Assembly (NCBI GenBank): GCA_035939775.1
Contig: DASZFO010000089.1
Coordinates: forward strand, 1-54,958
Length of the DNA stretch: 54,958 bases
Direction of reading: 5' to 3'
Source: Pirellulales bacterium
GTDB taxonomy: Bacteria > Planctomycetota > Planctomycetia > Pirellulales > DATAWG01
A program made the position numbers and the translations under genes. Position 1 is the stretch's first letter, and every line of letters starts with the position of its first letter. Under the pieces are notes generated by a model, which searched no databases, had not been told where the DNA came from, and saw nothing but the letters and a program-made list of their open reading frames with translations. Positions 3,194 through 41,708 of the stretch are shown here, piece by piece.

Positions 3194-3541
3194 CTAGTGC
3201 ACGCCGAGATCGTGCTCGATCTCCTGCGACTTGGTGCTCACACCGTCGTAGTTTCCGTCGCCATGGCTGGGCCGGAGATTCTGATTGTTCTTGGCGAATT
3301 CGTCGTTGAAACCCTCTCCCATGATCGTGGCCCGCTGCGACTCGGTGCAACCGCCGATGAGCAACCCCACGGCACAAACCAAAATCGAGAGCCAGCCGGG
3401 CTTTGGGCGCGCGTTAGAGCCAATCCGAGAACCGCCTGCGGAGAGGGGGACAGTCCCCTTTTGTTCCGACGACCATCGAAGCGATGGTGCCCGCACAAAA
3501 GGGGACAGTCCCCGGCGGTTCTCGGATAGGCTCTTAAACAT
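3194..3541 (-). CDS. Small lipoprotein with a repeat element between start codon and signal sequence
   Basis: About 115 residues. The C-terminal half looks genuine: a hydrophobic stretch (GWLSILVCAVGLLIGGC) ending in a lipobox Cys, then a polar tail with ESQRATIMGEGFNDEF. The N-terminal half is the translation of the palindromic repeat at 3415-3536 (EQKGTVPLSAGGSRI). No ATG lies between the repeat and the signal sequence, so translation must start at the ATG at 3541, just outside the repeat, or at a TTG/GTG inside the signal sequence. The repeat may therefore have been inserted between start codon and signal sequence without breaking the frame. No Shine-Dalgarno is seen at the chosen start. 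Function is unknown. The reality of the gene is moderately supported by the lipobox only. Confidence 0.5.
   Translation of the reverse strand: MFKSLSENRRGLSPFVRAPSLRWSSEQKGTVPLSAGGSRIGSNARPKPGWLSILVCAVGLLIGGCTESQRATIMGEGFNDEFAKNNQNLRPSHGDGNYDGVSTKSQEIEHDLGVH
3415..3536. repeat. Palindromic repeat, copy A of three (about 120 bp)
   Basis: The two ends are inverted copies (AGAGCCAATCCGAGAACCGC and the complement of GCGGTTCTCGGATAGGCTCT). Just inside them lie opposed copies of GGGGACAGTCCCCTTTTGT, itself partly palindromic. A loop of about 35 bp contains CCATCG and CGATGG. Copies B (7616-7734) and C (26975-27093) share the ends and the GGGGACAG cores and differ mainly in the loop. Size and symmetry suit a RAYT-mobilised BIME or a MITE. 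No flanking duplication is visible. Confidence 0.9.
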
Positions 3542-40099: not shown

Positions 40100-40114
40100 A
40101 CGTGCAAGAATCGT

Positions 40115-40212
40115 TGGAGTTCAGGCTTCAGCCTGTGAAGTGTCTTTCGCTCAATTGACGGCCCGCACGCTAAAGCGTGAACTCCAACTGTTGGAGTTCA
40201 CGCTTTAGCGTG
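40115..40212. repeat. REP sequences upstream of the RAYT gene (three copies, one inverted pair)
   Basis: Each unit is GTTGGAGTTC followed by a short hairpin. The first (40115-40138) has CAGGCTTCAGCCTG. The inverted pair (40166-40188 and 40190-40212) has CACGCTAAAGCGTG and CACGCTTTAGCGTG, head to head. A GGAG foot plus hairpin is the known form of RAYT-mobilised REPs. The change from ACGCT/AGCGT to AGGCT/AGCCT keeps the pairing. A bare hairpin CACGCTTCAGCGTG also occurs at 40449-40462. The stretch 40213-40448 shows no gene. Confidence 0.88.
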
Positions 40213-40483: not shown

Positions 40484-41116
40484 ATGCGCTACCCGACCAT
40501 TGAGCGCCAGATGTATCGCTGGCGGCGAATGACGCCAGTCCAGCGCGAGCAGGCGTTGGCTTGCCGCAAACAGCAGCGACTCCCGCTGCATAGCCCGCCC
40601 CATTATGCAAGCGACACAAGCTTCTATCTGATCACGGCGGCATGCTACGAGCATCGCGCAGTCATCGGCCACAGCAGCGAGCGCATGGCGGATTTCGAGG
40701 CGTCGTTGCTCGAGGTCGTGCGGCAAAAATGCCAGGCCGTCCATGCTTGGACCATCTTGCCAAACCATTACCACGCGCTCGTCCAAGCCTTGGACGTTGA
40801 AGCACTGTTGTCGGCATTGGGACGGCTGCACGGACGAACTTCCTTCGAATGAAACGGCGAGGAACAGCGCCGCGGTCGAAAAGTGTGGTGCAATGCGGCT
40901 GAAACGGCGATGAAATCGGAGCGGCACTTCTGGGCATCCTTGCTCTACGTCTTGCATAACCCAGTCAAACACGGTTACGTCGAACAATGGCAGGACTGGC
41001 CATTCTGCAGTGCCGCCGCGTGGCTCGAAGAAACCGGACGCGAAAAGGCCGAACGAATGTGGCGCCAGTTTCCGATCGACGGTTTTGGAGAAAAGTGGGA
41101 TCCGCCAGAGTTGTAA
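40484..41116 (+). pseudogene. REP-associated tyrosine transposase (RAYT), interrupted by in-frame TGA
   Basis: The frame from ATG 40484 encodes PHYASDTSFYLITAACYEHR and the HUH motif in AWTILPNHYHALVQ, then reaches a TGA at 40850-40852. The same frame continues without shift through NGEEQRRGRKVWCNAAE to LYVLHNPVKHGYVEQWQDWP, which carries the catalytic Tyr region and the NPVKHG block, and ends at 41116. The total is about 210 residues, normal for a Y1/HUH REP transposase. The stop replaces what is expected to be Trp (FE-stop-NGEE, TGG to TGA). REP hairpins lie on both sides. It is probably an inactivated transposase that once mobilised these REPs. Confidence 0.88.
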
Positions 41117-41126
41117 GGCTGGGCAG

Positions 41127-41172
41127 CACGCTGAAGCGTGAACTCCAACGGTTGGAGTTCAGCCTTTACGCC
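41127..41172. repeat. Inverted REP pair downstream of the RAYT gene, right copy interrupted by the MITE
   Basis: Left copy (41127-41149): CACGCTGAAGCGTG then GAACTCCAAC. Right copy, inverted (from 41151): GTTGGAGTTCAGCCTTTACG, a degenerate hairpin broken at 41170 by the insertion of the 226-bp element; the sequence resumes at 41397. The arrangement mirrors the pair at 40166-40212, so the transposase gene is bracketed by BIME-like pairs. Confidence 0.82.
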
Positions 41173-41396
41173 AGCCCTTTGTACTAGCACTTTTTCAACA
41201 TATTGGGGATTATGGAGAACGCAGTCGTATAAATGTCACGGTAAATTCGGTAATCAGCGCCGTTTCACGCTCCGCCCATGTTCAATCGATGCGATTCAAA
41301 TCGTGCGATTGCTGAACTCCAAGACGTTTCAAACTTGCTGAATCCTCGGAAACGTCTGGGATTCACGGTGTTTTGGATGCTAGTACAAAGGGCTGG
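41171..41396. mobile_element. 226-bp MITE-like non-autonomous element with 8-bp target duplication
   Basis: Perfect 19-bp terminal inverted repeats (CCAGCCCTTTGTACTAGCA at 41171-41189 and its complement at 41378-41396) are flanked by identical 8-bp direct repeats CCTTTACG (41163-41170 and 41397-41404). No ORF of note lies inside. An internal inverted pair AGACGTTT / AAACGTCT and low GC relative to the neighbours are visible. Precise removal restores GTTGGAGTTCAGCCTTTACG continuing to CTACTG, a REP-like sequence. The source transposase is not in the window. An 8-bp duplication is compatible with several IS families. Confidence 0.88.
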
Positions 41397-41426
41397 CCTT
41401 TACGCTACTGTCCACGAGCTGACGCA

Positions 41427-41708
41427 ATGCTAATAGACATCGTCGACGCTCGGCCGTTGGACGAGTATCGTGTTCATCTCCGATTTGAAGATGGTGTCGA
41501 GGGGACCATCGATCTTGCGAAACTGGTCCGCTTCGAGAGTGTGTTCGCACCGCTTCACGAAAAAGCGTTTTTCAATCAAGTCCATGTGAACTCGGAATTG
41601 GGCACCATCGAATGGCCGAACGGCGCCGACTTGGATCCCGATGTCTTGTACGCGGAAATCACGGGAATCCCAATCTCGGCCGAGCGCCGTAAATCATCTG
41701 GTTACTGA
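41427..41708 (+). CDS. DUF2442 protein
   Basis: 93 residues: IVDARPLDEYRVHLRFEDGV, EGTIDLAKLVRFESVFAPLH, then IEWPNGADLDPDVLYAEITG. This matches the DUF2442 pattern. Such genes are often paired with DUF4160 genes in toxin-antitoxin-like modules, but the partner is absent here: upstream lies the MITE and transposase island, which could have displaced it. No clear Shine-Dalgarno is seen. It is convergent with putA, with 28 bp between stops. Confidence 0.82.
   Translation: MLIDIVDARPLDEYRVHLRFEDGVEGTIDLAKLVRFESVFAPLHEKAFFNQVHVNSELGTIEWPNGADLDPDVLYAEITGIPISAERRKSSGY

Follow-up and report, generated by a model that had tools for sequence, protein, structure and literature searches.

We found that the stretch of Pirellulales DNA analysed here (54,958 bp, referred to as the window) carries a 226-bp element with perfect terminal inverted repeats, flanked by an exact target-site duplication and located inside a REP monomer, on the axis of the REP hairpin. 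The element lies between a gene for a REP-associated tyrosine transposase (RAYT) and a DUF2442 gene (Table 1). Inverted ends combined with an exact duplication are the usual trace of a DDE-type transposase, and because both are present we consider the locus to be the product of a transposon-type insertion. Very probably a non-autonomous, MITE-like DNA transposon inserted here once, mobilized in trans by a transposase of the cut-and-paste type with a stagger of 8-10 bp. The locus provides a clean case of nested mobile elements in which the order of events can be read.

Table 1. Features of the insertion locus (positions in the window)
Feature	Position	Strand	Basis
MITE-like element, 226 bp	41171-41396	none	genome-wide single copy, ends, frame translation
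Left terminal inverted repeat, 19 bp, CCAGCCCTTTGTACTAGCA	41171-41189	+	sequence
Right terminal inverted repeat, 19 bp, perfect reverse complement of the left	41378-41396	-	sequence
Left target-site duplication, CCTTTACG (alternative GCCTTTACGC)	41163-41170 (alternative 41162-41171)		sequence
Right target-site duplication, CCTTTACG (alternative GCCTTTACGC)	41397-41404 (alternative 41396-41405)		sequence
Exact 12-nt REP-head match within the element	41311-41322	-	sequence, shuffles
REP monomer split by the element: head GTTGGAGTTCA plus left hairpin half	41151-41170	+	right arm continues from 41405
Intact REP monomer in head-to-head orientation to the split monomer	41127-41149	-	REP pattern
Perfect head-to-head REP monomer pair, 5' of the RAYT gene	40166-40212	none	REP pattern
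Further REP monomer, 5' of the RAYT gene	40114-40135		REP pattern
RAYT gene, in-frame TGA at 40850-40852	40484-41116	+	profile matches, translation

Ends, boundaries and content of the element

The boundary of the element can be read in two ways. The first gives a 226-bp element with 19-bp ends and an 8-bp duplication, CCTTTACG; the second gives a 224-bp element (41172-41395) with 18-bp ends of the form CAG...CTG and a 10-bp duplication, GCCTTTACGC. Judged from the letters, the two readings are equally exact and either would fit. The 19-bp end (short form CCAGCCCTTTGTACTAGC; ends also written CAGCCCTTTKTACTAGC) has two matches in the window at three mismatches or fewer, compared to 0.01 expected. 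A scan of the window for inverted repeats of at least 12 bp within 1.5 kb that are flanked by a duplication of at least 6 bp recovered the element in three registers, with exact 8-bp and 10-bp duplications, together with one other place at 3456-3503, while 20 shuffled windows gave one structure in total. This other, weaker place consists of a short inverted repeat whose flanks form the 7-bp direct repeat GACAGTC. A previous reading of the sequence alone had proposed a 226-bp insertion at 41163-41404, duplications included, with perfect 19-bp ends and an intact 8-bp duplication on both sides. All of this is confirmed to the exact coordinate, with the 10-bp duplication as an equally exact alternative.

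The GC content of the element is 46.9% compared to 61.7% for the window. No transposase was found in its six translated frames, each of which contains a stop codon apart from a single short plus-strand frame. We found no match to Rfam families between 40000 and 41800 and no promoter-like or terminator-like sites between 41100 and 41450. An exact match to the 12-nt REP head lies inside the element, a match length reached by one of 5000 dinucleotide shuffles of the element interior. The match may be what is left of a REP that inserted into the element at some time, or chance noticed post hoc.

Both the size of the element (226 bp, in a class of about 50-600 bp without a transposase gene) and its termini (perfect 19-bp inverted repeats with an exact duplication of 8 or 10 bp) are those of a MITE. 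MITEs are also present in several copies per genome, whereas this element occupies one place in a draft assembly in which gaps may hold further copies. Because of this single copy we refer to it as a MITE-like orphan and do not assign it to a MITE family. The earlier designation as a MITE thus holds for the shape of the element, while neither further copies nor a parent IS were found.

The interrupted REP hairpin

Across the genome, the REP monomer pattern, TTGGAGTTCANNCTTNANNCT, is matched 88 times at two mismatches or fewer, and the backwards-read control has no match. The target of the insertion, GTTGGAGTTCAGCCTTTACGC(T), is therefore a genuine REP monomer of a dispersed family. This family shows the properties that define REP and REPIN sequences, being a dispersed palindrome with a conserved head and inverted pairs; 35 neighbouring pairs are arranged tail to tail in the REPIN form and span 47-91 bp, mostly 51 bp. 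A search with the head-to-head pair pattern had given two full places, both in the window, plus two with three mismatches, and the resulting view of a rare REP was abandoned once the monomer pattern gave 88 matches.

The hairpin of the family has the form CAGCC-TTTA-GGCTG with its axis in the middle of TTTA. Both the 8-bp and the 10-bp duplication are centred on this axis, as computed and as seen by inspection. When the element is excised in silico, the joined flanks read GTTGGAGTTCAGCCTTTACGCTACTG compared to GTTGGAGTTCAGCCTTTAGGCTG for the REP form. The REP-like sequence expected after excision is recovered, as a monomer with an imperfect right arm, and the proposed order of events, with the element entering a REP that was already there, is supported.

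We identified 57 exact REP half-sites, every one of them within the list of 88 matches. The right arm follows in all half-sites except the one bearing the element, so that no other half-site is interrupted at the apex of the hairpin. Matches to the REP pattern account for roughly 0.03% of the genome, with a REP axis at roughly one position in 73,000. Such positions are rare and a random hit on an axis is therefore unlikely, according to a calculation that is post hoc, ignores any intergenic preference and concerns one insertion only. The REP hairpin may have attracted the insertion.

Copies, relatives and the source of the transposase

The draft genome to which the window belongs (6.39 Mb, 384 contigs, 96% complete) contains no second copy of the 226-bp element. 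At three mismatches or fewer the 19-bp end has one third match in this genome, inside an open reading frame, compared to four for the reversed control. Searches of the same assembly with the element, with its ends and for ISAs1 revealed no related IS and no helper transposase with such ends; the ISAs1 search returned four matches, all fragments without such ends. The sequence-only reading had inferred an active transposase elsewhere in the genome and had named the lack of any other copy of the ends as evidence against itself. No other copy and no full IS with the same ends turned up in the draft, and the active transposase is unsupported, with a 384-contig assembly leaving room for one. Regarding the claim that the movement was recent, the intact ends agree with it, whereas one copy gives no date.

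In a set of 57 genomes (own genome included) the element matched itself only, with no match in the 56 other relatives. At one mismatch or fewer, the 18-bp end was found among 396 genomes of the order in our genome and in one of the 395 others, where it always has the form CAGCCCTTTTTACTAGCA with one of 18 bases different. As two of the five matches in that genome have a flank in common, they correspond to four sites, which mostly lie close to contig ends. One site, at 2183-2757 of locus L066 (genome G197), forms a structure of 575 bp bounded by the opposed ends CAGGGCTTTTTACTAGCG and CAGCCCTTTTTACTAGCA; related ends are present at the three other sites. The structure has no transposase-sized frame and no matching duplication around it, and no transposase was seen between such ends. 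The inner sequence beside the ends agrees weakly at best, the best of ten comparisons being reached by 18 of 2000 shuffles.

No similar element was found in plasmids, which yielded nothing, or in phages, which gave six partial matches at E 0.7. The exact 19-bp end has one match in genome_contigs, in an Acidobacteria MAG, which we discarded as it lies inside an open reading frame and has no second end. Three scans of viral contigs gave 0, 1 and 6 loci, with opposed ends in none of the six (the single locus included). When 392 genomes of the phylum were scanned with a pattern combining the end with the inner sequence, the element itself was recovered together with a match at two mismatches that we judged to be due to chance.

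We also looked for an empty site in relatives. A sister genus (G001) keeps the neighbouring genes, namely PutA and a DUF58 gene that is 87% identical. At its locus (L086, 7220-7367) the entire REP-RAYT segment is lacking, and DUF58 is directly followed by part of the DUF2442 gene. The missing stretch starts where DUF58 ends and reaches the middle of the DUF2442 gene, and this is not a clean empty site; a relative without the whole segment neither supports nor refutes the insertion. Ten other relatives keep only PutA.

We infer that a DDE-type transposase performed the insertion and that its helper element is either absent from the assembly or never resided there. Duplications of 8 bp are produced by the IS1595, IS66 and IS256 families, and IS copies often fall into assembly gaps. 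One tentative but plausible explanation is a helper from one of these families or a similar one, absent from the assembly or since lost. The locus is most simply read as having an 8-bp duplication and 19-bp ends, and the assembly is broken into 384 contigs at 96% completeness, which both suit this explanation, while none of the end matches leads to a transposase. It is less likely that the element arose by internal deletion from an ISAs1-type IS formerly resident here, with the ISAs1 fragments as the remains of the helper. Elements of the ISAs1 family have 8-10 bp duplications and CAG ends, and the 10-bp reading with its CAG ends would fit. The four ISAs1 matches in the genome, all of them fragments, and a full ISAs1 element elsewhere in the order that begins with CA and has a 9-bp duplication point the same way. 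However, the ends of this full element, CACGGCAATCGCATCT, are unlike those of our element, and nothing within five mismatches of the element end was found in the seven ISAs1 loci tested, which speaks against ISAs1 as the helper.

A very different possibility is that no transposon is involved and that the locus is a long REP pair, or REPIN, with its ends formed by the plus-strand monomer at 41152 and the internal head at 41322, the inverted repeat being coincidental. The internal 12-nt head is indeed oriented as a REPIN partner would be, a match that one of 5000 shuffles reached. Nevertheless such a pair would span 171 bp compared to the 47-91 bp of the 35 pairs in the genome, and it leaves unexplained the exact 8-10 bp direct repeats at the tips of 19-bp inverted repeats. 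We regard this possibility as highly improbable, and the duplication argues strongly against it.

In the transposon reading that we favour, a cut-and-paste type transposase would have acted in trans, because the element has no gene of its own, to insert the MITE-like transposon in a single event. Staggered cuts of 8-10 bp would have been made across the apex of a REP hairpin flanking its cognate RAYT gene. The element is now an orphan, having neither its own gene nor a copy or helper that we could find.

The RAYT gene and comparison with known systems

The two halves of the RAYT gene each match NF047646 and each fall under the curated whole-protein cut-off. There are six RAYT matches in the genome, two of them above the cut-off. 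REPs of this family are found near one of the six in the flanks examined, the one in the window, whose flanking REPs are as expected of a cognate pair. The five other RAYT matches have no internal stop and no such REPs nearby; one of these loci has a single REP head at one mismatch. One locus is shortened by a contig end. The probable cognate enzyme of the REP family is thus broken here, unless the stop is a sequencing error. With a broken RAYT next to the REPs, the family may have lost the ability to spread by means of its own cognate enzyme.

It is conceivable, but we think improbable, that the transposase belongs to a family recognizing the apex of REP hairpins and that the element struck the hairpin beside the RAYT gene of that same REP family. 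If true, one mobile element would have landed on the DNA hairpin of another, with the duplications centred on the axis.

Known systems offer partial parallels. As far as the accessible part of the MITEAba12 study describes it (PMC6382973), MITEAba12 is likewise short and gene-free with terminal inverted repeats and a target duplication, and the higher A+T content of our element relative to its host agrees with what is said of bacterial MITEs. Unlike our element, which has one copy and no parent found, MITEAba12 has 90 copies over many genomes and co-resident parent IS elements (PMC6382973). Targeting of REPs was described by Tobes and Pareja in 2006 for IS elements of five families, and the portion of that paper available to us names ISRm22, ISRm19, ISPa11, ISPpu9, ISPpu10 and ISPsy8 (PMC1525189). 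The insertion point of ISRm22 is on the axis of palindromy, with 6-bp duplications. Our element resembles these IS in being inserted inside a REP and resembles ISRm22 in lying on the axis. The published cases differ in being complete IS that are each present in several copies, every one of them in a REP; with one copy, a preference for REPs is not measurable here. The insertion is therefore real but ordinary, given that IS insertion into REP hairpins, the axis included, is already published in the same work. Should further copies of the element be found in REP hairpins, the few known REP-targeting elements would be joined by another family. We found no such case in the accessible text of a review of prokaryotic MITEs (PMC10969869), and a keyword search of open papers returned no account of this element or of MITEs in REPs of this lineage.

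The REP family itself resembles the REP/REPIN-RAYT systems outlined in the available part of PMC3733652 in its dispersed inverted pairs, its conserved head and its RAYT gene flanked by the same REPs. It differs from them in that the RAYT gene has an in-frame stop and one of the flanking REPs is interrupted. The REP monomers near the RAYT gene (40114-40212 and 41127-41170) are arranged head to head, while the dispersed pairs are tail to tail. On the other side of the element, the protein encoded at 41430-41708 belongs to DUF2442 (Pfam) and has a weak match, under the cut-off, to the antitoxin DhiA.
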